A program made the position numbers and the translations under genes. The notes below the pieces were generated by a model. The model was not told the DNA's origin, did no database searches, and was given only the letters and a program-made list of their open reading frames with translations. Below are positions 49,257-62,808 of a DNA stretch of 64,000 nucleotides, piece by piece. Source of the stretch: Faecalicoccus acidiformans (GTDB taxonomy: Bacteria; Bacillota_I; Bacilli_A; Erysipelotrichales; Erysipelotrichaceae); NCBI RefSeq assembly GCF_014202635.1, contig NZ_JACHHD010000002.1, forward strand, positions 62,001 through 126,000. The letters run 5' to 3'. The stretch's first letter is position 1, and every line of letters begins with the position of its first letter.

Positions 49257-51575
49257 TCATAATGGAAGTTTTTCCACTTTCTTGGTCACAAACCACACAA
49301 ACCAGAAGATTAAAGGAATATGGATCAAAACATAAAGAATCTGTATGGGCTGCAGCCGATCCAAGGCAATACAGAACCAATCTTGAAAAAACGGAACGAT
49401 GCAACAAATACAAAAAGCGGCAATCATCAAAGTGACCAACACAAACCGGATCCGAGTCATCGGCTTACACACTGTCAACAAAACACATAGCGAGTTGCAC
49501 CCTGCCAATATCGTACACATTGTGGAAAACTGTTCGTGATCCAAGTTTTGATGCCCGAAACGATCAAAACAATACACGCTCAAAATCCCAAATAAAACGC
49601 ACAAAGCACCCGGTAAAGCCCTGGATAAAACCGTGCGAAGAAAATTTCCCTTTACCCGTTCGGTATTGGGTTCCAAAGTCAGTATAAAACTTGGCAATCC
49701 TGTTGCCAGAGAAGAGATCAAAGTCAACTGGATCGGAATAAAAGGATAACTGTCCAAAAGAAAGAGGGTCATTAAAGCAAGTCCTAAAGACATCAAAGTT
49801 TTCACTAAAAAAAGCGAAGCTGTTCTCTGAATATTATTGATTACGCAACGGCCTTGATCCAGGATGGAAGGCATGGCTGAAAACTGATTTTCCAACAAGA
49901 CCAAAGAAGCGATATTCTTGGTGGCCTCACTTCCGGATCCCATGGCAATTGAACAATCCGCTTCTTTCAAAGCCATCACATCATTCACACCATCGCCTGT
50001 CATAGCTACAACATGACCTTGTTTTTTCAAAACCTTGATCATATCGCGTTTTTGTTCCGGCGTTACGCGCCCAAATACAGAGTGTGAATTCACAACGTCT
50101 TCTACGTCCTCAATGGAATCCATATCGATTCCCGTGCCTTGTACACCAGCTTTTCGAGCAATCGCCTGCACAGTATGAACATCATCTCCAGAGATGATCT
50201 TGATCGTCACATCCTGTCGGGCAAAATAATCCAATATGGCTTGAATATTTGGGCGCAAGACATCTTGGATCAAAACCAAAGCCACTGGAATATGATTCCC
50301 TTTAAAATGAGTCTTTAAATCTTCTTTAGCCAGGCAAAGAGTCAATACACGGATTCCCTGTTTGGCATAGTCTTCAATTTTTTTCAAGATCTCAGGATCC
50401 GGATCCGACACCAAAAAAGGGTATGCTCCTATCACATAGGCATCCTCTTCAAAAATAACTCCGCTGCCTTTTCGGGCACTGGAAAATGGAATCTTTTTCT
50501 GATAGGAGATCTCTTGCCTTGGACAATATTCCCGAATTGCCATTGCCGTAGCATTTTGATCATCTAGAACGCTGAACAATTTCGACAATATCTCTTTGAC
50601 CTGCTCTTCTGTATAATCATTGAACACTTCCAGTCCCGACACTTTCATTCGTCCTTCCGTGATCGTCCCTGTTTTGTCCAAACATAAAGTATCGACCCGT
50701 GCCAAAGTCTCTATACAATAAAGCTCCTGAACCAGAACTTTGCGGTTGGCTAAACGCAATGCCCCGATCGCCAAGGCAATGCTGGTCAAGATCACCAATC
50801 CTTCCGGAATCATGCCGACTACGCCAGCCACCATACTTAAAATGGAATCGTTCAAACTCGCATGAGAAATAAAAAAGGATTTGCCAAACAACAATAAGCC
50901 GGCAGGGATCAACAAAAAAGTAATGATTCGAATAATGGTATCCAAGGCATCCCTAAGCATGGAAGGATACTTTTTTTCACGCTTGGCATGTCGCAAGATC
51001 GAATGCGCATACGTCTGATCCCCTACCAGAACCGCCTGCATGCGAATCTTGCCCGCTTCTAGATAGCTTCCGGAATAAACGGTATCGCCGCCCCGTTTCA
51101 AAACCGCATCGCTTTCTCCAGTCAGCATGGATTCATTGCATTCTGCAAATCCGTCAATCACTACACCATCTACAGGAACTTGATCGCCGGTGCGCAAGAT
51201 CAAAATATCATTTTCGACGATTTGATCTACGGAATAGGTTTGTTCCTTCCCTTGACGTACGATGGATACACGTGGCTGATTCAATAAAGCTAGCGCATCC
51301 AATTTCCGTTTTGAGCGAATTTCCTGTACGATTCCAATCAAGGCATTGAAAAAAACGACTCCCATGAACAACATATTTCGCAAAGAGCCGGTCAATAATA
51401 CTAAAAAAGCCAGGAAAACATTGATCGCATTAAACAGAGTCAATAGATTGGACTGAAAGATCGTACGATAAGATTTTCCTGTCTCTTCCTCAATTTGATT
51501 TTTTTTCGCCTGACGGACCTGTTCAGGATTTAGTCCGTTCTGGGGATCCGTCCAGCTTTTCACTTCAAAATTCAT
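49257..51575 (-). CDS. Cation-translocating P-type ATPase (CtpE/Exp7-like)
   Basis: The 772-residue protein has the P-type marks LTGES, the phosphorylation site CLDKTGTITEG, and the hinge GDGVNDVMALKEADCSIAMG. The transmembrane-4 motif is PEGL, as in the CtpE-like group linked to Ca2+ uptake and envelope integrity, rather than the CPC of heavy-metal pumps. About ten membrane helices are visible. Its ATG overlaps the degenerate ispD copy by 4 bases, so it is translated from the ispD transcript. The cation is inference. Confidence 0.9.
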   Translation of the reverse strand: MNFEVKSWTDPQNGLNPEQVRQAKKNQIEEETGKSYRTIFQSNLLTLFNAINVFLAFLVLLTGSLRNMLFMGVVFFNALIGIVQEIRSKRKLDALALLNQPRVSIVRQGKEQTYSVDQIVENDILILRTGDQVPVDGVVIDGFAECNESMLTGESDAVLKRGGDTVYSGSYLEAGKIRMQAVLVGDQTYAHSILRHAKREKKYPSMLRDALDTIIRIITFLLIPAGLLLFGKSFFISHASLNDSILSMVAGVVGMIPEGLVILTSIALAIGALRLANRKVLVQELYCIETLARVDTLCLDKTGTITEGRMKVSGLEVFNDYTEEQVKEILSKLFSVLDDQNATAMAIREYCPRQEISYQKKIPFSSARKGSGVIFEEDAYVIGAYPFLVSDPDPEILKKIEDYAKQGIRVLTLCLAKEDLKTHFKGNHIPVALVLIQDVLRPNIQAILDYFARQDVTIKIISGDDVHTVQAIARKAGVQGTGIDMDSIEDVEDVVNSHSVFGRVTPEQKRDMIKVLKKQGHVVAMTGDGVNDVMALKEADCSIAMGSGSEATKNIASLVLLENQFSAMPSILDQGRCVINNIQRTASLFLVKTLMSLGLALMTLFLLDSYPFIPIQLTLISSLATGLPSFILTLEPNTERVKGNFLRTVLSRALPGALCVLFGILSVYCFDRFGHQNLDHEQFSTMCTILAGCNSLCVLLTVCKPMTRIRFVLVTLMIAAFCICCIVPFFQDWFCIALDRLQPIQILYVLIHIPLIFWFVWFVTKKVEKLPL

Positions 51576-52051
51576 ATTTCGTTCTCGATTTTCATCAAAG
51601 GCGTATTGGACAGTTTCTCAATGGCTGCCGCATAGGAATCGATCTGTACGTTGGTCTCAATGGCCAGCTGTAAAGAAAACATCAATAAACGAGTATCAAA
51701 TGCCTGCAGATCTTTATCATGATAAATTGCCGGATAGGTTTCCAATGAATCCAGAACTCGATCCAATTGATCCAACTCTATATCGCGTCCCAATCCAACA
51801 ACAACGACATTCTCTTGCGTGATGGCTTTCAAACCATTTAACAAAGCGATATAAGGGGCAGAAGACATTTGTACCAGCATCATTTTAGAACGTGGTTTTT
51901 GAGCCAGCTGAAGAAGCCATTCTGTCGAACAGCTGACAACAATTTGGCGACATCGAAGATCCCGCACAAAAAGATCTGCCGTGGTTTCCAAATGTTCAAA
52001 AGAATCCTCGGCATCCGTACAATCATCAAAAATCAGTGCTGAATACTCCAT
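51572..52051 (-). CDS. Degenerate IspD-like paralogue lacking the nucleotide-binding motif
   Basis: The 159-residue product starts MEYSALIFDD, aligned with MEYSVCLLAAG of the intact IspD just upstream. It shares CRQIVVSC with IspD's CKQIIITC, and its C-terminal part (QAFDTRLL to NTPLMKIENE) parallels QCFETKLI to DVPVKVVVGD. The P-loop-like LAAGQGSR and the HDAARP and TDDAQL motifs are gone. It is about 60 residues shorter. The ATG at 52051 has AAGGG 6 bases upstream. It is probably a catalytically dead duplicate kept between ispD and the ATPase gene. Confidence 0.7.
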   Translation of the reverse strand: MEYSALIFDDCTDAEDSFEHLETTADLFVRDLRCRQIVVSCSTEWLLQLAQKPRSKMMLVQMSSAPYIALLNGLKAITQENVVVVGLGRDIELDQLDRVLDSLETYPAIYHDKDLQAFDTRLLMFSLQLAIETNVQIDSYAAAIEKLSNTPLMKIENEI

Positions 52052-52070
52052 ATTCATCCCTTCGCTCTCT

Positions 52071-52730
52071 CTATGTAAGATCTTTTGGCAATGTGATCTT
52101 GATATTTGAACTGTCTCCAACAACGACTTTGACAGGGACATCCGAATACCATTCTACCAATTGTGCATCATCCGTACCGATGCGTCCTTCTTCGGCCGCC
52201 TTCTGATGGCATTCTTGAATGAGCTTAGTTTCAAAGCATTGCGGTGTCTGCGCATTGAATGTCAATGCCCGATCAGGAGTAGATTCTACATACCCGTTGC
52301 GGACGATCTTAACTGTATCTGTACTAGGCACCATCAAAAGACAGGCCCTTTCTGTTTTTAATGTCTTTTTAAGATCTTCGATCTGTAATCTTTTTAAATA
52401 GGGACGGGCCGCATCATGAATAAACACATAAGGATAACGAACTTGGCGTAATCCATGCGCCACGCTTTCCTGACGTGTTTGTCCTCCGACGATCACTTCC
52501 ACCCGATCATCTTCTTGGTAAAGAGCTTTCACAAACTCTAACTCTTTTTCCAAACAAGTAATAATGATCTGCTTACATTCTCTATCTTCTAAAAAAACAT
52601 GCAGACTGCTTCCCAGAATAGTCTGCCATTCGGGATCGCGGGGATCGGATAAAATATAATGAACTTTATTAAAATGTAGATTGGTCCGGGAGCCTTGTCC
52701 GGCCGCCAACAAACATACACTGTATTCCAT
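52071..52730 (-). CDS. ispD: 2-C-methyl-D-erythritol 4-phosphate cytidylyltransferase
   Basis: IspD couples CTP to methylerythritol phosphate in the MEP isoprenoid pathway. The 219-residue protein has LAAGQGSR, GGQTRQESVAHGL, IHDAARPYL, AQTPQCF and NIKITLP, all IspD marks. The usual lysine region PKQ is changed to NKVHYIL. I start at 52730, where AGGTG lies 8 bases upstream. A TATAAT box lies about 35 bases upstream. It is the first gene of an operon with a degenerate copy and a P-type ATPase. Confidence 0.93.
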   Translation of the reverse strand: MEYSVCLLAAGQGSRTNLHFNKVHYILSDPRDPEWQTILGSSLHVFLEDRECKQIIITCLEKELEFVKALYQEDDRVEVIVGGQTRQESVAHGLRQVRYPYVFIHDAARPYLKRLQIEDLKKTLKTERACLLMVPSTDTVKIVRNGYVESTPDRALTFNAQTPQCFETKLIQECHQKAAEEGRIGTDDAQLVEWYSDVPVKVVVGDSSNIKITLPKDLT

Positions 52731-52764
52731 GCAAGTCACACCTATTCTTTTTTCTTTGATATAT

Positions 52765-52793
52765 ATTATACGATTTTTTTCTTCGATGTTCCA
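52765..52793 (-). promoter_or_regulatory. Putative promoter of the ispD operon
   Basis: A perfect TATAAT (52765-52770) with a weak TGGAAC at 17 bases upstream lies on the minus strand, beyond the TIM terminator. Confidence 0.45.
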
Positions 52794-52796
52794 CAT

Positions 52797-52831: not shown

Positions 52832-53518
52832 TTATTTTTCCTGATTCGCTTTTACGATCGCTTCTGCCATTTCACGAACACGAACAGCCGGATCAGGTGC
52901 TTTTAAGATTCCGGAAGTAGCCCCGGTACCATCTGCTCCTAATTTGATCACGTTATAGCAATCTTCAGCAGTGCTTACACCAGAAGCGATCATAACCAAC
53001 ACATTAGGATCGATCTCGTGAAGTGCTTTGACCGTCTCTACCGTATAAGAATCATCCGCTACCTGACCAGTTCCAATCAAATCGGTTGGTTCCGCCAATA
53101 CGATATCTGGTCCCATACAGGCAACCGCTTTAGCTTCCACGGTCGAATCTGCACAGACAACCGTGATCATTTCCAATTCTTTGGCACGTTTGATGGTCGC
53201 GTACAGATCGCTCAATGTTTTCGGGTTTTCCGCATGATTCAAAAACAGCGCCTGTGCTCCGGCTTCCTTTAAGGATTCCCCTAATACATGGCCCATGCCT
53301 CTTCCCGGTACCAGCGGATCCATAGACTGCGCACAAACGATCACATGTTCGGTATTTTCCGCAATCATCCGAATATCGGCATAAGGACAAGTAAAATAGA
53401 TCTGAAGTCCTGTGTCTTTTGCCACCTGATCGGCAGCCTTAGCCAATTCTAAGCTTTTTTCACCATAGAGATACGATTTAGGATTGACGATCAAAAAGGG
53501 AGATTGTGCTTTTATCAT
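52832..53518 (-). CDS. Triosephosphate-isomerase-family protein, archaeal-like short type
   Basis: The 228-residue protein has the TIM catalytic positions: Asn/Lys in IVNPKSY, His in LNHAEN and Glu in LAEPTDLIGTGQ, plus a phosphate loop GATSGI. The short length and AEPxxLIGTG form recall archaeal TIMs and the TIM homologues that act on erythrulose phosphates in tetritol pathways. It sits in an aldolase-YjbQ-TIM operon near a polyol PTS. A separate housekeeping TIM would be expected near gpmI, so this one may be pathway-specific (inference). Confidence 0.88.
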   Translation of the reverse strand: MIKAQSPFLIVNPKSYLYGEKSLELAKAADQVAKDTGLQIYFTCPYADIRMIAENTEHVIVCAQSMDPLVPGRGMGHVLGESLKEAGAQALFLNHAENPKTLSDLYATIKRAKELEMITVVCADSTVEAKAVACMGPDIVLAEPTDLIGTGQVADDSYTVETVKALHEIDPNVLVMIASGVSTAEDCYNVIKLGADGTGATSGILKAPDPAVRVREMAEAIVKANQEK

Positions 53519-53529
53519 GTAAATTCCTC

Positions 53530-54051
53530 CTATTCCCCAATCACAATGATCTTACATTTACGAGTACGCGGACGAGTGCGGTCAAAATCCGCAAAGTAAA
53601 CATAGCCGGTCGTTCCCACACCTAGTTTTCCTTCATCGACTTCGAAAGTAGCGCTGGATCCAATCAAAGTCGCTTTTAAGTGCGCATCGCCATTGAACAA
53701 AGCTGTACGATCCCCTCCCGGAAGATAGGCTTCGGCATCCGGCCAGCTTTCAACCGCTTTATAGTGTTCTTCTCCAGGATAAGTATACTGATCCTTGGTA
53801 TTATGATCCGGAATGATTTTCGCCAGCACATTATTTAAATCAACCTGTAAGAATTCATCACCGTTTTCATTGATATCGTGACTGTATTCTTCAAAGAATA
53901 CGGAACATGTCGTATGCGGAGAAATCACTACACAGATTCCATTTTGAATGCCGCTTTCTTCGATCACACGGCGAACATCTTTTGTGACGTCGATGTAGGT
54001 TGGTGTTTTGCCATGCGATTGAACTTTGATTGTTTCCTTATACACTGCCAT
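53530..54051 (-). CDS. YjbQ/UPF0047 family protein
   Basis: The 173-residue protein shows the YjbQ core: SPHTTCSVFFEEY near residue 45, a DHNTKDQY segment and NGDAHLKATLIGSS. A C-terminal strand carries GTTGYVYFADFDRTRPR. It is longer than the common 140-residue YjbQ because of an insertion near residues 60-105. YjbQ has been linked to a secondary thiamine phosphate synthase activity and is often found in sugar catabolic operons. The role here is unknown; spacing of 11-14 bases to both neighbours shows one operon. Confidence 0.88.
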   Translation of the reverse strand: MAVYKETIKVQSHGKTPTYIDVTKDVRRVIEESGIQNGICVVISPHTTCSVFFEEYSHDINENGDEFLQVDLNNVLAKIIPDHNTKDQYTYPGEEHYKAVESWPDAEAYLPGGDRTALFNGDAHLKATLIGSSATFEVDEGKLGVGTTGYVYFADFDRTRPRTRKCKIIVIGE

Positions 54052-54065
54052 ATTTTTTCCTCCTG

Positions 54066-54938
54066 TTATTTTATTTTCTGAAAAACACGAATGGCTCTTT
54101 TTACATCTTCTTTGATTGCTTCGGTAGCCGCCAAAGACATCGAGTCATAGAAATTATTTGTATCCTTTTCCCAATATGCCTTAGAGGCCTTGCCGCCAGC
54201 CTGGTTCATATAGGTGTAATAATTTACTTTACAAATTCCATTTTCAATAGCCACCGCATAATCTTCATCCGAAACACCAGATCCGCCATGCATAACCAGC
54301 GGTACATTGGTCGCCTCTAAAATTCGTTTAACGCGAGGCAGATCCAGTTTTGGCTCAGTCAGATAAACACCATGTGTCGTTCCAAAAGCGACAGCCAAAC
54401 AATCGACACCTGTTTTTTCCACAAATTCTTTGGCAACCTGAGGATCTGTATAAATGTCATCCAGATCTTCGTAATCGTCTTTACTATCTGCATTTCCTCC
54501 TTCACCATGGACGATCTCTGATGTAAAGATATGGCCTAGTTCTGCTTCCACACTGACATTGCATGCATGTGCAATCTTAACGATTTCGGCAGTTTCTTCA
54601 ACATTTTCTTCGAAGCTTTTCGCGGAAGCATCATACATTACAGAAGTAAAGCCAAGACGAATCGCCTGTACACAACGATCAAAGGAACTTCCATGATCCA
54701 GATGCAAAGCGACAGGTACACTCGCTCTTTGGGCATAATATTTCATGATAGGACCGATTTCTTCTAAATCGATAATGTCGTCATGACTTTGTGCGTGCTG
54801 TAAGATCACAGGACTGTTCAACTCTTCTGCTGCTTGAATGATCCCGCGGATGGCTTCCAGTGTTGTTCCGTTAAAAGCCCCGACCGCTTTCTTTTCTTCT
54901 TTTGCCTGATCCAGTAATTCTTTTAATGTAACTAGCAT
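54066..54938 (-). CDS. Class II fructose/tagatose-bisphosphate-type aldolase
   Basis: The 290-residue zinc aldolase has HLDHGSSFD with the first Zn ligand, EAELGHI, a GTTHGVYL loop and LVMHGGSGVSDED, the usual class II pattern. Class II aldolases cleave ketose-1,6-bisphosphates or related ketose phosphates to two trioses. Being in a SorC-controlled operon with YjbQ and a TIM, next to a polyol PTS operon, it likely cleaves a pathway ketose phosphate; fructose-bisphosphate is not proven. Confidence 0.93.
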   Translation of the reverse strand: MLVTLKELLDQAKEEKKAVGAFNGTTLEAIRGIIQAAEELNSPVILQHAQSHDDIIDLEEIGPIMKYYAQRASVPVALHLDHGSSFDRCVQAIRLGFTSVMYDASAKSFEENVEETAEIVKIAHACNVSVEAELGHIFTSEIVHGEGGNADSKDDYEDLDDIYTDPQVAKEFVEKTGVDCLAVAFGTTHGVYLTEPKLDLPRVKRILEATNVPLVMHGGSGVSDEDYAVAIENGICKVNYYTYMNQAGGKASKAYWEKDTNNFYDSMSLAATEAIKEDVKRAIRVFQKIK

Positions 54939-56138: not shown

Positions 56139-56167
56139 AAAAAAAGGGGGAAATCGAACCCCCTTTT
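56137..56167. terminator. Bidirectional terminator between SorC copy 1 and transketolase
   Basis: GGGGG and CCCCC arms with an ATTTC/GAAAT inner part are flanked by nine T on the minus strand and TTTT on the plus strand. Confidence 0.85.
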
Positions 56168-56178
56168 CATATGCATAA

Positions 56179-57102
56179 CTATTGGACAAAATCCATTATC
56201 TTTTTCGCAATGCTGGAGGCATCCAAACCATAGTAGGCCAGCAGATCTTTCGGCTTTCCGCTCTGCCCAAATTCATCGTTCAGCCCGATCATCTTCAGTC
56301 GGCATCCGCTTCCTTCCTTGGCCAGCACTTCCGCTACCGCCGATCCCAGGCCTCCGATCACGGAATGCTCTTCTGCCGTCACGATCACTTCGTGTTCTTT
56401 TGCCAGCTTCTTGATCAGCTCTTCATCGATCGGTTTGATGCTTGAGATGTTCACGATTGTCGGTTCGATCCCTTCCATCTCTTTTGCGGCCTTCAAACTC
56501 TCCTGCACCATCATCCCGGTCGCTACGATCGCCACCTTGCTTCCTTCTTTCAGTACGCTTCCTTTTCCAGGCTGCCATAGGTAGCTTTCATCATACACAT
56601 CTTCCACGCTCGCTCTTCCCAGGCGTACATAACATGGTCCATCGATCTTTGCTATGCTTTCGATGATCTGCTTCGTCTCTTCGGCATCACAGGGCTGGAA
56701 CACCTTCATGTTCGGAATGCTTCGCATCAGGGCCAGATCCTCTACGCTTTGATGACTTGCCCCGTCTTCTCCGACCGTGATCCCCGCATGCGTTGCACAG
56801 ACCTTCACGTTCAGATTCGGATAACAGATGCTGTTCCGGATCTGTTCGAATGCTCTGCCGGCCGCAAACATCGCAAAGCTGGAGGCATAGGCGATCTTGC
56901 CGCTGGCTGCCAGTCCGGCTGCCACTCCCATCATGTTGCCTTCGGCGATCCCCATATCGAAATGTCTTTGCGGACATACTGCCTTGGCATCCCCGGTCTT
57001 CGTCGATCCTGCCAGGTCGGCATCCAATACTACGACATCCTGATTCTCCTGTACCAGTTTCGCCAGGGCCTTCCCATACGCCGCTCTTGTTGCCATTGCC
57101 AT
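56179..57102 (-). CDS. Transketolase, C-terminal subunit (split enzyme)
   Basis: The 307-residue protein covers the middle (pyrimidine-binding) and C-terminal domains of transketolase, with the catalytic Glu in GIAEGNM, HAGITVGEDG and ASSFAMFAAGRAFEQ. Split transketolases need both subunits to form the ThDP site. I choose 57102, where GGAGG lies 8 bases upstream, rather than a GTG at 57111. It follows the N-terminal subunit with a one-base gap. By eye the gene is GC-richer than its neighbours, as is its partner. Confidence 0.93.
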   Translation of the reverse strand: MAMATRAAYGKALAKLVQENQDVVVLDADLAGSTKTGDAKAVCPQRHFDMGIAEGNMMGVAAGLAASGKIAYASSFAMFAAGRAFEQIRNSICYPNLNVKVCATHAGITVGEDGASHQSVEDLALMRSIPNMKVFQPCDAEETKQIIESIAKIDGPCYVRLGRASVEDVYDESYLWQPGKGSVLKEGSKVAIVATGMMVQESLKAAKEMEGIEPTIVNISSIKPIDEELIKKLAKEHEVIVTAEEHSVIGGLGSAVAEVLAKEGSGCRLKMIGLNDEFGQSGKPKDLLAYYGLDASSIAKKIMDFVQ

Positions 57103-57103
57103 T

Positions 57104-57913
57104 CTATTCACCTCCCAGCTCTTTCATAGCTGCCTCATACTGTTCCTGGTTCGGTGCACTTCCGTGCCACTTGTAGTTGTTCTCCATAAAGGATACCCCT
57201 TTTCCTTTGATCGTATGTGCTATGATCATCGTCGGCTGTCCTTTTGTGTTCCGCGCTTCTTCGAATCCCTTGGCCAGCGATTCGAAATCATGACCATCCA
57301 CTTCCACCACATGCCATCCGAACGCCTCGAACTTTTCCGGAAATGGTTCCGGTCCTACGACATCCTCAATGTTTCCGTCGATCTGCAGATGGTTGTAGTC
57401 CAGGATCCCGCACAGGTTGTCCAGTTTGTAATGACCGGCCGCCATGCACGCTTCCCAGACCTCTCCTTCTTCGCTTTCTCCATCTCCCAAAAGAAAATAG
57501 ATGCGATGATCGTTCTTGTCCAGCCGATTGGCCAGCGCCATCCCTACGGCTGCCGAGATCCCCTGTCCCAAAGATCCGGTCGACATATCGATTGCTTCGA
57601 TATAGTTCATGTTCGGGTGTCCCTGCAGCGGTGAATGCAGCTGACGGAACGTCTTCAGTTCTTCCTTAGGGATGAATCCTTTTTCGCACAAGGTTGCATA
57701 ATAGCCAGGTGTGATATGTCCCTTGCTCAGGACAAATCGGTCCCGGTCCTGGCTTGCCACGTTGTCTTTGTTGATATCCATCTCCTCGAAATACAATGAG
57801 GTCAGGATATCGGCTGCCGACAAGGATCCGCCCGGATGTCCGCTTTGTGCCGTATAGACCATCGTCAGGATATTCTTTCGTATATTCAATGCATGTTGTT
57901 CTAATTCTGTCAT
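57104..57913 (-). CDS. Transketolase, N-terminal subunit (split enzyme)
   Basis: The 269-residue protein is the ThDP-diphosphate-binding half, with SGHPGGSLS, SKGHITPG, TGSLGQGIS and the ThDP motif LLGDGESEEG to ILDYN. It pairs with the next gene. Transketolase moves two-carbon ketol units between sugar phosphates. It is the seventh gene of the polyol operon, behind a hairpin that may reduce its expression. GGAGGAG lies 11 bases before the ATG. No housekeeping transketolase was seen in the window for comparison. Confidence 0.94.
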   Translation of the reverse strand: MTELEQHALNIRKNILTMVYTAQSGHPGGSLSAADILTSLYFEEMDINKDNVASQDRDRFVLSKGHITPGYYATLCEKGFIPKEELKTFRQLHSPLQGHPNMNYIEAIDMSTGSLGQGISAAVGMALANRLDKNDHRIYFLLGDGESEEGEVWEACMAAGHYKLDNLCGILDYNHLQIDGNIEDVVGPEPFPEKFEAFGWHVVEVDGHDFESLAKGFEEARNTKGQPTMIIAHTIKGKGVSFMENNYKWHGSAPNQEQYEAAMKELGGE

Positions 57914-58034: not shown

Positions 58035-59327
58035 TTATCCAAAGATCTTGTCTTGTTCCTGACGGATCTTATAAATCAACGTATTTGTATCGATTTCAAC
58101 GTCATCATAAGTCAACAGCTGACCTTTTTTAACGTCTTTTTTCAATACAGCATTCTTGTTGATGAGTCCAAACGGAACATAACCTTCTTGTTTAGCATGT
58201 TCATGCGTATCGATCGATCCATAAGTTGTATATCCACCGATACCATCCAGTTTTTCTCCGGCTTTCATATCTTTCTTAGCCACTGTGATAACCTCAGATA
58301 CTAATCCGCCTTTTGGTACGATTACGCCTTCATGATAGATGACGGCACGTCCAATCGTTAATGGAGTTTCAAGGTTGCACAAGTGATATGGACGATACAG
58401 AGTCCATAATGGTCCAGGACCCATGCTGTGGTATTGCATCTGGTAAGCAATTTCTTCGTTATCTGTTGAAACGGTTACGAATACACCTGGAGCGATACCA
58501 CGAACATATTCAACAACGCCGTGTTTATTCAGGATACCATCATCCTCTTTTAAACGATACATATCGTTCAAGCCCTTCACGTCACAAGCGATACCATGAC
58601 CACCGATTACATCTGGAACTAAACCAGTTGCATTGGACATAGCGGCCATTTCAACCATTGTTTTCGTACCATCTTTAAATGCACACAGCATCTTTGGAGA
58701 CATTTTACGACGTGTAGCTTCTTCAAGAACTGTATCTGGGTTACATTCGCGATCGATACGGTTGTTCTTTCCTTTACCGATAACTTCAACTTTCAAGCCC
58801 ATTGCTTCTGCGAAGTCATACAATTCCATAACAGCACCTGGTTCGTCACCATTTGTACCTGTGTAAACAACACCAGCTTCTTGCGCTTTCTTATACAAGT
58901 AAGGCCCGATAACAACATCAGATTCAACATTCATCATAATGATGTGTTTCTTAGCAGCGATAGCATCCAATGCGATCTTAGCGCCAACATCCGGCACACC
59001 GGTAACATCAACGACTACATCAATTTCAGGAACTTTCGTTACTAAATCAGAATCATTTGTCGCAACATATTTTCCTGCTTTGATTGCTGCAGATGCTTCT
59101 TCCACGTCTGTTGTCTTTACGATTTGATCTGGATGAACTCCACCATATTCAAATGCGTGTACAGCTAAGTCAATATTGATATCGGCACAGATGGCAGGTC
59201 TTTCACCTTTGATCATTACCAATTCTGTAACCATACCGCGGCCCATCTGACCAGCACCAACGACACCGACCTGGATAGGTTTTCCTTCAGCTTCTAAAGC
59301 TGCTAATTTTCTGTTCATGTTATACAT
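58035..59327 (-). CDS. SAF-domain oxidoreductase of the COG4091 (DRL-like) family
   Basis: The 430-residue protein has an N-terminal NAD(P)-binding GVVGAGQMGRGMV (residues about 21-33), a homoserine-dehydrogenase-like central part with TGTNGDEPGAVMELYDFA, and a C-terminal SAF domain (about residues 340-425). COG4091 includes Brucella DRL, which converts 1-deoxyxylulose 5-phosphate to methylerythritol 4-phosphate; other members have unknown roles in sugar and polyol loci. Here it takes the place of a polyol-phosphate dehydrogenase behind a glucitol-type PTS. GGAGG lies 10 bases before the ATG. The actual reaction is unknown. Confidence 0.87.
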   Translation of the reverse strand: MYNMNRKLAALEAEGKPIQVGVVGAGQMGRGMVTELVMIKGERPAICADINIDLAVHAFEYGGVHPDQIVKTTDVEEASAAIKAGKYVATNDSDLVTKVPEIDVVVDVTGVPDVGAKIALDAIAAKKHIIMMNVESDVVIGPYLYKKAQEAGVVYTGTNGDEPGAVMELYDFAEAMGLKVEVIGKGKNNRIDRECNPDTVLEEATRRKMSPKMLCAFKDGTKTMVEMAAMSNATGLVPDVIGGHGIACDVKGLNDMYRLKEDDGILNKHGVVEYVRGIAPGVFVTVSTDNEEIAYQMQYHSMGPGPLWTLYRPYHLCNLETPLTIGRAVIYHEGVIVPKGGLVSEVITVAKKDMKAGEKLDGIGGYTTYGSIDTHEHAKQEGYVPFGLINKNAVLKKDVKKGQLLTYDDVEIDTNTLIYKIRQEQDKIFG

Positions 59328-59381: not shown

Positions 59382-59759
59382 TTAATCTTTAGTGATAATT
59401 TCGATTGTACCGCCTTTTTTGAGTTGTTCTTCTGTGATTCGCTCCCCAACCAGCTCGATCATTCCTGGACGTTCAGCTTCTGGAGTTCCGTTGAAACAAA
59501 GCGTACAATGGCCCAATTGCCTCAAGGTATTCAAAGCTTCCCAGCCTACTGCACTGATTGTGTACTCAACGCCGCAAATCTTCATGATATCCCCGGGAGC
59601 CGGATCTGCTTTCAATTCACTCTTGGAATGAAGAACGCAGATCTCCGCTAATTCCGGTGGTGCATCATCGTTAAAGATGATGATGAAGTTGCATGCGTCG
59701 TTCAAGAAATCACAGGCATAATCTCCCATTCCGGTAACAGTAGCCTGATATTTGATCAT
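59382..59759 (-). CDS. srlB: PTS glucitol/sorbitol-family EIIA component
   Basis: The 125-residue protein matches the glucitol EIIA family (YQATVTGMGDYACDFL at the start, CVLHSKSELK with the likely phospho-His, and GVEYTISAVGWEALNTLRQLG). It receives phosphate from HPr and passes it to the IIB domain. The start at 59759 has AGGGG upstream; a TTG at 59765 is less likely. It is the fifth gene of the PTS operon. Confidence 0.93.
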   Translation of the reverse strand: MIKYQATVTGMGDYACDFLNDACNFIIIFNDDAPPELAEICVLHSKSELKADPAPGDIMKICGVEYTISAVGWEALNTLRQLGHCTLCFNGTPEAERPGMIELVGERITEEQLKKGGTIEIITKD

Positions 59760-59771
59760 ACGCAACCCCTA

Positions 59772-60761
59772 CTATGAATACAATCCAATACTGAATACAA
59801 AGGCGATGGCTACAGCTAACGGACCTGTGATAACACGAGAATACAATACAGCTGGAACCCCGTATTCGATCGTTTCTGGCTCAGCTTCTCCTAAAGACAA
59901 ACCTACTGGAACGAAGTCGCCACCTACCTGAGCATCGATTGCGAACAAGGCTGGCAAGGCGAATTGAGCCGGAATATTTCCTAAACCAATCTGAGCACCT
60001 AACAATGTTCCTACAACCTGTGCAATTACAGCACCTGGACCAAGGATCGGCGAAAGGAACGGAAGGGCACAAACTAATGAAATAACAAGCATTCCTGGCA
60101 ATGTAGAACACATTGGAGAAATTGTATTGGCAATAACATCGCCTAAACCACTATAAGAAATGATACCTAAAATTGTAGAAGTAAAGGCCATGAACGGCAA
60201 TACGTTCTTGATAACCATATCGATGGTTTCACGACCAGCCGCAAAGAATTTATTAACGACTTTACCAACACCAATACCGATACGAGTGATGATATTCGGT
60301 TTCTTTTGAGGTTCTTCAGAAGTTGTTTTTGGAGCTTCTTCAGCCGGTTTTTCTTCAGCTACAGCTTCAGAAGCTGCAGGCTGTTCTACAGTTTCATCTG
60401 TAAATGTGATATTTTCTTCTTTAACGTCGGAAACATAAAGTTCTTCAACGATAAACTGTGCCAAAGGACCCGATTTACCAACCGGTACTAAGTTTACAGT
60501 CTTAATTCCTTTTTTACAGTAAACACCGCAACGAGCAACTCCGCCACAGTCGATGACAGCCAAGCAGATTTGTTCATCTGGTGCAGTGGTTTTGAATCCA
60601 TCCAATACTTCACAACCGGTCATTTCCCCGATTTTCTTAGCTAAAGGATTCACACCGCCTGTTGTAACACACAAGATCTTGTTACAAGTTTCTGTTGGAG
60701 CAATTACTAACGGTCCACCCCAACCGCTGTTTCCACGAGTAATTTTTACATTTCTATACAT
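59772..60761 (-). CDS. srlE: PTS glucitol/sorbitol-family EIIBC component
   Basis: The 329-residue protein has an N-terminal IIB domain (residues 1-120, with GWGGPLVIAPTE and the cysteine-rich DCGGVARCGVYC), then an Ala/Glu/Pro-rich linker (about 125-155) and a membrane IIC1 part with LPFMAFTSTILGI and GPGAVIAQVVG. It phosphorylates the sugar during import. The linker is longer than usual. It sits between srlA and srlB. Confidence 0.94.
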   Translation of the reverse strand: MYRNVKITRGNSGWGGPLVIAPTETCNKILCVTTGGVNPLAKKIGEMTGCEVLDGFKTTAPDEQICLAVIDCGGVARCGVYCKKGIKTVNLVPVGKSGPLAQFIVEELYVSDVKEENITFTDETVEQPAASEAVAEEKPAEEAPKTTSEEPQKKPNIITRIGIGVGKVVNKFFAAGRETIDMVIKNVLPFMAFTSTILGIISYSGLGDVIANTISPMCSTLPGMLVISLVCALPFLSPILGPGAVIAQVVGTLLGAQIGLGNIPAQFALPALFAIDAQVGGDFVPVGLSLGEAEPETIEYGVPAVLYSRVITGPLAVAIAFVFSIGLYS

Positions 60762-60780: not shown

Positions 60781-61299
60781 TTAGGCCTTGTTTCTCGTTA
60801 AGATCGCAAAGATCTTTTCTGTTAATAAACCACGAATGAAAATTACGATAACACCTACGATAAAGTAACGAATGGCTAACTCACCAGTGTTCAAACCTAA
60901 AGTAGTGATACCGGCAGAAATACCCATGTAGACAAACAATTCACCAGCATTTGCATGTGGGAACAAACCTGTAACTGGGTGAACGAAACTTACAGCTGCA
61001 TCGTAGTAGGCTGGTTTGTATTTTTCTTCTACGAAACGTCCGAAAGTGTAGCACATCGGGTTACCTAAACAGATAACCGCTAAGATAGGCAGAACCGTAT
61101 AACGACAAATCGTATACTTGGTAATTTTACGAGCAAAGTTTTCTACCTTTTCTTCACCAATCAGTTTGATTACGGAGTTGATGGCAGTCATCAAGCAGAC
61201 CAGCGTAGGAATGATTCCGGTTACCCAAGAAACAAACTGTTCGCCGCCGGCTGAGAAGAGTCCCATAAAACCTTCAGCAATCATCGAAATAAATTCCAT
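60781..61299 (-). CDS. srlA: PTS glucitol/sorbitol-family EIIC component
   Basis: The 172-residue integral membrane protein has four or so hydrophobic segments and the SrlA pattern (FISMIAEGFMGLF at the start, YCFGRFVEEKYKPAYY-like loop and SFVHPVTGLFPHANAGE). Together with SrlE it forms the membrane channel for the polyol. TAGGAGG precedes the ATG. GutM lies directly upstream. Confidence 0.94.
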   Translation of the reverse strand: MEFISMIAEGFMGLFSAGGEQFVSWVTGIIPTLVCLMTAINSVIKLIGEEKVENFARKITKYTICRYTVLPILAVICLGNPMCYTFGRFVEEKYKPAYYDAAVSFVHPVTGLFPHANAGELFVYMGISAGITTLGLNTGELAIRYFIVGVIVIFIRGLLTEKIFAILTRNKA

Positions 61300-61350: not shown

Positions 61351-61785
61351 TCAGTCGGCCGTTACCAATTCATCATCAGCCTCTGCTTTGTCGAAGCGTG
61401 TCTCCAGCGCTTCCAAAGCTTGTATATACCCTCGATAGCGTTTCTGTTCTTTTTCATCCATGGATCTGAAATCTTCTAGAAACGAATCGATTGATACCCC
61501 TACTAACTTCTTCCCTATCAATGTGTCGATAGGATGGCACTTGGCCAGGAAGGTTTTTCCATCCATAACCTCGCATCCTGTAATAATGCGATTGTTGTCA
61601 CAAGCAAGAATGACCAAATATCCATTAAAGAATCTTCCTCGCTTTTGGCCGATTCCTACGTTTCCTAATTTGTGAACGCGGCGAATCGACTTTTTAAAAT
61701 TACGGATCTGAAAGACCCCTCCAAGACTTTGCATGAGAAACAGCACAAAGACAAAGATAAACAATCCAATCAGTTCTCTTGGCAT
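61351..61785 (-). CDS. gutM: GutM-family glucitol operon activator
   Basis: The 144-residue protein has one N-terminal membrane helix (residues 6-22) and the GutM core with GNVGIGQKRGRFFNGYLVIL. In enterobacteria GutM activates the glucitol operon, though its mechanism is unsettled and the membrane helix is hard to reconcile with DNA binding. AAGGAGG lies 7 bases upstream. Its first 16 bases overlap the end of the second SorC regulator. Confidence 0.9.
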   Translation of the reverse strand: MPRELIGLFIFVFVLFLMQSLGGVFQIRNFKKSIRRVHKLGNVGIGQKRGRFFNGYLVILACDNNRIITGCEVMDGKTFLAKCHPIDTLIGKKLVGVSIDSFLEDFRSMDEKEQKRYRGYIQALEALETRFDKAEADDELVTAD

Positions 61786-62765
61786 TCTGCCGCCTCCTTA
61801 TCTAATAACTCAATCATCTTTTGCACACAGCTGACGTCTGTGATCAGAATATTGACTTTTTGTGAACGAATAACACCTAATACAGCTTGTCCTTTATTGC
61901 GTCCCACTGCGATACCGACACGGTTAGGGATCGTGACAAGCTGTTCCTTGCGTAATCCCATCACACGATCATTGAAATCGCTGAACGCTTCTTCATTTCC
62001 GTTGGCATCAACCAGCTTTAACAAGCAGTCACCTACCACACCCTTTTTTGAAAACTCTTGAAGTTCTTCGGGTGTCAGGTATCCGCTTTGCGATAATGTA
62101 CCATCACGATCCGTGCATCCGATACCCATCACGACGGTATGAAGTTTGGCAAAAAGATCAGTAACTTTACGAATCGATCGTTCTTCCAAGAAACCCTTCA
62201 TGATATCGCGATTGTTGAACATCGCTGGTGCATAAAAAGGAATTGAAGAACCGCCAAATTTTTTCGCAAAGGCAGCGGCGATATCATTGGCATGAAATCC
62301 CTCGTTAGATTGTCCATACCCGACTCCGCCAACGACCGGCACAAAAATCGCATCTCTTTCATCTGCGAGTTCTTTCGAATTCGCGATATTAAACAAAGTC
62401 CGTCCCATCGAAACACCGATATAATCTTTGTCTCGAAAGATCCGTGACAGATATTTTAAAGCTTCTTCATTCACACGTTCCTGGTGTTCGAACTGTGTCT
62501 CAAATTCATTTTCATCTATGATCAAAACTTCTTTTAGATGAAGCCGATCTTCTAACTTACGCTCCAGATCGTCATACATGCTTCCATACACATTGATCAC
62601 GTCGATCTTAACGATCCCTTTTTCTTTTCCGGCCTGCAAAAGACGAGATACCGTTGTTCTGGAAATCCCTAAACGGTCACTAATTTCTTTTTGCCCTAAT
62701 CCATCTTTGTAGTAAAAGTGGCAGCATTTGTAAATTAATCTTTCATCATCAATTATCTTTTTCAT
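61770..62765 (-). CDS. SorC/DeoR-C-type sugar-binding transcriptional regulator (copy 2)
   Basis: The 331-residue protein has a helix-turn-helix at residues about 25-48 (QKEISDRLGISRTTVSRLL) and a SorC ligand domain with IGVSMGRTLFNI and PVVGGVGYG. SorC regulators bind phosphorylated sugars and repress or activate polyol operons. It is the first gene of the operon it probably controls. Its sequence is clearly different from the SorC at 55188. A perfect cre site lies 15-30 bases upstream of the ATG. Confidence 0.93.
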   Translation of the reverse strand: MKKIIDDERLIYKCCHFYYKDGLGQKEISDRLGISRTTVSRLLQAGKEKGIVKIDVINVYGSMYDDLERKLEDRLHLKEVLIIDENEFETQFEHQERVNEEALKYLSRIFRDKDYIGVSMGRTLFNIANSKELADERDAIFVPVVGGVGYGQSNEGFHANDIAAAFAKKFGGSSIPFYAPAMFNNRDIMKGFLEERSIRKVTDLFAKLHTVVMGIGCTDRDGTLSQSGYLTPEELQEFSKKGVVGDCLLKLVDANGNEEAFSDFNDRVMGLRKEQLVTIPNRVGIAVGRNKGQAVLGVIRSQKVNILITDVSCVQKMIELLDKEAAECQEN

Positions 62766-62778
62766 TTTTTGGCCTATA

Positions 62779-62793
62779 ATGTAAGCGTTTTCT
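62779..62793 (+). promoter_or_regulatory. Catabolite-responsive element (cre, CcpA site)
   Basis: The 15 bases ATGTAAGCGTTTTCT match the cre consensus WTGNAANCGNWNNCW at every fixed position. It lies downstream of the predicted start of the PTS operon, so CcpA would repress the operon when preferred sugars are present. Confidence 0.8.
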
Positions 62794-62808
62794 GCTTTTT
62801 CCAGATAT

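Follow-up and report, generated by a model that had tools for sequence, protein, structure and literature searches.

Why would a gut bacterium keep what is apparently its only copy of an essential isoprenoid enzyme, DXR type II (DXR-II), within an operon for sugar-alcohol import? The question is raised by a locus of Faecalicoccus acidiformans, which we analyzed within a 64,000-nucleotide stretch of one contig (the window). An initial annotation had described the encoded protein, a DXP reductoisomerase-like oxidoreductase (DRL), as an enzyme used in place of a polyol-phosphate dehydrogenase.

The window protein is a DRL of the DXR-II type

The DRL open reading frame (ORF) extends over exactly 58035-59327, starts with ATG and is unbroken, which bears out the full-length protein of 430 residues given by the initial annotation and adds the strand (minus), which was absent from it. 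The NAD(P) motif is intact as annotated (GxGxxG, G24-A-G26-Q-M-G29). The SAF domain lies in the right position, but its Pfam score of 20.8 is just below the cut-off of 21, so that the domain is marginal by Pfam. Pfam also gave 216.7 bits for DRL_cat (PF21135, cut-off 27) and 30.9 bits for NAD_binding_3 (PF03447, cut-off 24).

The closest solved protein was Brucella abortus DRL (3UPL/3UPY, E about 1e-98), with 40% identity over the full length, a match far beyond chance. We obtained an AlphaFold2 model, run without rows from plasmid records, with a mean pLDDT of 84.9 (lowest at 258-279). The comparison with Brucella DRL, as suggested in the initial annotation, gave a TM score of 0.93 to 3UPY over 430 columns, indicating the same three-domain fold, while the next different enzyme by fold was homoserine dehydrogenase, with a TM score of 0.42.

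A 2013 survey named residues that distinguish DXR-II from the DLO families or bind the substrate (PMC3847144). All ten key sites, in Brucella numbering Lys191, Lys193, Thr229, His250, Arg320, Tyr322, Val351, Gly121, Glu174 and Phe178, are conserved, being found by alignment mapping as Lys185, Lys187, Thr223, His244, Arg312, Tyr314, Val343, Gly115, Glu168 and Phe172 of the window protein. The survey lists further divergence sites, and at a few of these the window protein and Brucella DRL have different residues. In a quick tree of 68 proteins, which contains some long branches, the window protein fell among Firmicute DRLs, on the same side as the Brucella and Listeria DRLs and within a clade of 27 rows (SH-aLRT 99), 26 of them linked to a gut PTS; the outgroup was formed by DLO-like proteins (L084-L086), which are without Thr229 and Arg320.

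Loss of the DRL substrate residues and grouping with homoserine dehydrogenase were the two outcomes said to speak against the initial annotation. The residues are retained, and the grouping is excluded by tree, fold and profile score (NF004976, 26.8 bits against a cut-off of 205; best TM 0.42). Membership in a DLO family is also ruled out by residues, tree and fold. The phylogenetic split that had been proposed between MEP-type and PTS-linked DRLs did not hold up: nearly all PTS-linked relatives keep the key DXR-II residues, no change sets them apart, and they are often the only DXR of their genome.

Taken together, the window DRL resembles Brucella abortus DRL in fold, in all reported residues for fosmidomycin or substrate binding and dimer contacts, and in belonging to a MEP genome without DXR-I, but differs from it in lying inside a glucitol-type PTS operon and in a separate, PTS-linked Firmicute subclade (SH-aLRT 99). 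A Deinococcus homologue (L078:6001-7308) is without several of the DXR-II residues and lies in a nucleotide-sugar cluster with rfbF and rfbC, which suggests a further, different function within the superfamily.

DRL is the last gene of a glucitol-type PTS operon

DRL closes one tight row of genes, SorC-gutM-srlA-srlE-srlB-DRL, with intergenic gaps of -16, 51, 19, 6 and 54 bp, respectively (Table 1). Each PTS gene was confirmed by Pfam, and IIC and IIBC scored above their NCBIfam cut-offs. DRL does stand directly behind srlB, as annotated, 54 bp after it (59382-59765) and in the srlD place of such operons; no ORF for an srlD-type sorbitol-6-phosphate dehydrogenase was found between 56179 and 62765 in the ORF list or with Pfam and NCBIfam.

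Table 1. Features of the DRL locus and its surroundings in the window
Feature	Position	Strand	Evidence
SorC/DeoR-type sugar-binding regulator, first gene of the operon	61770..62765	-	PF04198, 188.6 bits
GutM-like activator	61351..61785	-	PF06923, 87.2 bits
PTS glucitol-type IIC (SrlA)	60781..61299	-	NF049923, 242.5 bits (cut-off 150)
PTS glucitol-type IIBC (SrlE)	59772..60761	-	NF049924, 468.2 bits (cut-off 400)
PTS glucitol-type IIA (SrlB), divergent	59382..59765	-	PF03829, 110.3 bits; TIGR00849, 83.7 bits, below cut-off 189.55
DRL / DXR type II, 430 aa	58035..59327	-	PF21135, 3UPY fold, key residues
Transketolase, N-terminal subunit	57104..57913	-	Split transketolase 6YAK, E 5.9e-97
Transketolase, C-terminal subunit	56179..57111	-	6YAJ, E 6.5e-109; donor site GEDGxxH kept
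Terminator-like hairpin with T tract, end of DRL-transketolase cluster	56147..56163	-	Terminator scan
Putative cre-like (CcpA) site CAGAAAACGCTTACAT, just upstream of SorC	62779..62794	-	Two mismatches; weak
Class II ketose-bisphosphate aldolase, nearby cluster, possible partner	54066..54938	-	TIGR00167, 262.3 bits (cut-off 215.6)
YjbQ family protein, possible partner	53530..54051	-	TIGR00149, 83.4 bits (cut-off 67.75)
Archaeal-type triose-phosphate isomerase (TIM), second TIM of the genome, possible partner	52832..53518	-	NF003302, 186.5 bits (cut-off 132)
IspD, MEP enzyme following DXR	52071..52796	-	TIGR00453, 188.2 bits (cut-off 181.3)

The split transketolase begins 121 bp behind DRL. In the gap, CCAGCAG and CTGCTGG make up an inverted repeat, accompanied by a stretch rich in T; both were read off the sequence itself and were not listed by the terminator scan. 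The cre-like site upstream of SorC may be a weak CcpA site; the number of cre-like sites across the window was no higher than chance, and similar sites precede the operon in four other loci (L010, L012, L068, L069).

The window has the srlA-srlE-srlB-gutM PTS genes in common with the classic glucitol (srl/gut) operon, but is without srlD, carries a SorC-type regulator instead of SrlR, and has DRL in the srlD place. Bacterial erythritol catabolism (eryABCD) involves a phosphorylated tetritol, the SorC-type regulator EryD and a TIM-like isomerase, features that the window may share; eryABCD uses a GlpD-type dehydrogenase, whereas the window has DRL. In the 'gut' operon of Listeria (LMOf2365_0571-0574; PMC11176438, DXR-II listing in PMC3847144), SorC, GutM, the gut PTS and DRL occur together as in the window, but in a different order, with DRL directly behind SorC (L. 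innocua, L068). Listeria carries MEP, DXR-I and mevalonate genes (PMC3847144).

DRL as the probable sole DXP reductoisomerase of the genome

The genome (1.77 Mb, completeness 99.7%) was found by profile search to encode Dxs (708.9 bits), IspD, IspE, IspF, IspG and IspH, and neither DXR-I (Dxr) nor HMG-CoA synthase was found in it. It has the make-up of class A DXR-II genomes, with a complete MEP pathway and DXR-I absent. Since it carries a single DRL, this gene content makes the window protein very probably a DXR-II and the only DXP reductoisomerase of the cell. The initial annotation was right in placing a full-length DRL where srlD would be, but its reading of DRL as a substitute for a polyol-phosphate dehydrogenase left out the MEP-making role.

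Among 148 genomes of the order, DXR-I was found in 126 and DRL in 4, and never both; two genus-mates have DXR-I and no DRL. When the 132 IspH-bearing genomes were considered, DRL was present in 3 of 6 without DXR-I vs 0 of 126 with it (Fisher p 5e-5, relatedness ignored). Two near-complete genomes of the order (G020 and G075) have IspH and neither DXR-I nor DRL, possibly reflecting a third DXR type or an assembly gap.

Linkage of DRL to PTS genes across bacteria

We compared 49 related DRL loci from bacterial genomes. Gut-PTS genes lie beside DRL in 27 of them, in several gene orders and in Erysipelotrichia, Negativicutes, Clostridia, Bacilli and Brachyspira; plasmid records add gut-PTS-DRL loci of Listeria innocua (L068) and Ligilactobacillus salivarius. 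Eleven of the 27 PTS-linked loci belong to genomes that also carry DXR-I, where DRL would be superfluous if it served the MEP pathway only. With L044 left out, DRL is PTS-linked wherever a genome has both DXR-I and a true DXR-II, while it is unlinked in 16 of 30 IspH-bearing genomes without DXR-I (contrast p 0.003, relatedness ignored). L044, with DRL and DXR-I but no PTS, was set aside as its ORF joins unrelated sequence mid-gene and looks misassembled. The DRLs of Tissierella and Eubacterium have neither PTS nor transketolase genes adjacent. Even with a MEP role for DRL in the window genome, its PTS linkage appears meaningful.

In Selenomonas ruminantium (L029 and L055; 11441-14161 in L029), ispD-ispF-cysS directly follows PTS-DRL, though DXR-I is present.

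Genes near DRL in the window

The transketolase pair has a second, about 99% identical copy in the genome (98-99%; 99.1% over 56197-57913), located on contig C16 between prfB and cysK. The identity starts exactly at the start codon and does not extend beyond the two genes' coding sequences, which suggests a recent event of duplication or gene conversion. The window pair keeps the His (GHP) and Asp/His (GEDGxxH) suited to a donor with a C1 hydroxyl; it was rejected as a DXP-specific or DXS-like enzyme on account of these ordinary donor-site motifs and its 98-99% identity to the other copy. In Ligilactobacillus salivarius, fructose-6-phosphate aldolase and transketolase belong to the same gene run (DRL-PTS-fsa-tkt), and the order in L016 is PTS-DRL-FSA/transaldolase-transketolase. 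No transketolase was seen beside DRL in the loci examined of the relatives Absicoccus, Catenisphaera and Faecalitalea.

Class II aldolases recur next to DRL in other loci, and YjbQ adjoins gut-PTS-DRL in many Selenomonadales. The paired genes for YjbQ and the archaeal-type TIM (52832-54051) recur next to gut-PTS-DRL in Selenomonadales, Megasphaera and Catenisphaera, where their identities are 71-79% and 61-71%. The function of YjbQ is poorly known; it may be part of the same pathway as PTS-DRL. The window TIM, a second, archaeal-type copy, was ruled out as the housekeeping enzyme (64 bits for the TIM family vs 321 for the other genome copy). A 189-aa ORF without a Pfam match (51572-52141) has a 71-bp overlap with the end of ispD and is weakly similar to an IspD of another genome; it is perhaps a degenerate IspD relative.

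DRL clusters with an E1/E2 complex

E1a, E1b and E2 come immediately after DRL, at a spacing of 0-23 bp, in Agrobacterium, Rhizobium, Sinorhizobium, Shinella, Aminobacter and Pseudoroseomonas. This arrangement was present in 9 of the 11 alphaproteobacterial (rhizobial and related) plasmids opened; in the other two, both Phyllobacterium records, no E1a-E1b-E2 followed DRL. Some of these clusters also contain dihydrolipoyl dehydrogenase and lipoyl synthase. Upstream of DRL, the import genes encode a gut PTS accompanied by a separate enzyme I, or else an ABC transporter with a sugar kinase (the kinase where the stretch reaches it); no such import genes were seen within the stretches opened for Shinella and Aminobacter. 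Priestia has E1b, E2, lpdA, an MFS transporter and an FGGY kinase near DRL. An E1a/E1b/E2 complex accompanies DRL in L070-L073, L075-L077, L079-L081 and L096. Pyruvate dehydrogenase is the best-scoring assignment for the E1 subunits, which could simply act on pyruvate.

An Erysipelotrichaceae genome (G147), of the same family as the window, brings together DRL, a gut PTS, lipoyl transferase, E3, E1a, E1b, E2 and transketolase. Searches for IspH and DXR-I found neither in this genome, which is only 90% complete, implying, with that caveat, that its DRL hardly serves isoprenoid synthesis. A Chloroflexota DRL (L052) has an FGGY kinase, a class II aldolase and an isomerase adjacent, in a genome without IspH or DXR-I.

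Acetoin dehydrogenase operons (acoABCL) offer a parallel, as E1a-E1b-E2, often with E3, stand beside DRL in rhizobia, Priestia and G147; the substrate here would be DXP, not acetoin, and no such operon was found in the window genome. There, the genome search gave no acetoin- or pyruvate-dehydrogenase E1, with only a weak transketolase match for E1a and none beside DRL.

A branched tetritol phosphate as the possible link

From family, operon, genome content and neighborhoods, as read from sequence, and from established enzyme chemistry, we infer a substrate, a direction, a cleavage step and an evolutionary order. DXR chemistry is a ketol rearrangement joined to a reduction. In its forward role, DRL would convert DXP and NADPH to MEP for isoprenoid supply, while the other and probably older job of the family would be to act on a branched tetritol that has been imported and phosphorylated. 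The glucitol-type PTS may import 2-C-methyl-D-erythritol or a closely similar compound (apiitol, for instance) and release it in the cell as the 4-phosphate; with methylerythritol, the product would be MEP itself. DRL could interconvert the branched phosphate and the straight-chain ketol (DXP) in either direction; in reverse, 2-C-methylerythritol 4-phosphate would yield DXP. Acetoin and DXP are both methyl ketols, and in the original, catabolic context a complex of the acetoin-dehydrogenase type would split DXP into acetyl-CoA and glyceraldehyde-3-phosphate. One scheme would thus explain the import, phosphorylation, DRL and lipoylation genes and the E1-E2 complex. Reverse chemistry on a branched polyol phosphate had been suggested by the initial annotation; the neighborhoods in other phyla make it likelier, though in substrate and direction it is still a hypothesis.

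We consider it probable that the PTS link is functional by way of a branched tetritol phosphate, and equally that the sole reductoisomerase is found in a PTS operon because the other job of its family concerns this imported compound. More tentatively, and with slightly less than even confidence, we propose that DXR-II evolved as the catabolic oxidoisomerase of a methylerythritol route, running from import and phosphorylation (by a gut PTS, or a transporter and FGGY/PfkB kinase) through MEP and DXP to acetyl-CoA and glyceraldehyde-3-phosphate, and was recruited more than once to replace DXR-I. The window genome would be one such case: DXR-I was presumably lost, leaving isoprenoid supply to DRL, and MEP could then be fed from outside by the PTS or from DXP by DRL. 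With E1 not found, the proposed cleavage step would be without an enzyme here; methylerythritol might be salvaged straight into MEP, with the PTS as entry, and DRL in reverse might provide DXP for thiamine or pyridoxal.

The PTS genes could instead be an ancestral leftover or a chance neighbor, with DRL serving the MEP pathway alone and its position having no present metabolic meaning. The complete MEP pathway without another DXR, the cleavage complex not found in this genome and the unlinked DRLs in DXR-I-less MEP genomes of Tissierella and Eubacterium agree with this, but we regard it as unlikely, because the link persists at PTS protein identities down to 36-77% and across several rearranged gene orders, DXR-I-lacking genomes included.

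Two other readings change the substrate. Where transketolase and transaldolase replace the complex, a hydroxymethyl analogue would fit better: the PTS would import apiitol (2-C-hydroxymethyl tetritol), and from its phosphate DRL would form xylulose 5-phosphate, to be passed to central metabolism by transketolase and transaldolase. The transketolase behind DRL, its donor-site residues and the gene runs of L016 and Ligilactobacillus salivarius fit such a route, although the relatives without an adjacent transketolase and the E1/E2 operons, which indicate an acetyl unit, i.e., a methyl ketol, make it doubtful for this locus, and more so than a MEP role alone. The open literature searched held nothing relevant on catabolism or a PTS for apiitol, apulose or methylerythritol. 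That DRL is a plain dehydrogenase of a linear polyol phosphate (glucitol or pentitol), replacing SrlD without ketol rearrangement, seems very improbable. It would suit the place of DRL behind srlB in an operon without srlD, and the homologous Listeria cluster has been taken as a sorbitol operon (PMC11176438). However, the active-site residues, by which the PTS-linked members are not marked off, are those of the DXR-II clade, of which eleven members were functional in complementation tests, converting DXP to MEP or rescuing a dxr mutant (PMC3847144).

Implications for the DXR-II family

According to a 2026 review, the distribution of DXR-II has no defining pattern besides overrepresentation in certain pathogens (PMC13001223), and the 2013 survey reported it also in genomes with DXR-I, using mevalonate, or with neither pathway (PMC3847144). 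A shared neighborhood of polyol import, phosphorylation and ketol cleavage would supply both a pattern and a testable second function for DXR-II. The related operons elsewhere suggest that the DRL family normally belongs to a pathway, not described so far, by which methylerythritol and other branched sugar alcohols are used. If the branched-tetritol proposal is true, it would illustrate the way in which an essential biosynthetic enzyme gets displaced by a catabolic one, and it predicts methylerythritol uptake into the MEP pathway, which would bear on fosmidomycin-type inhibitors and isoprenoid engineering.
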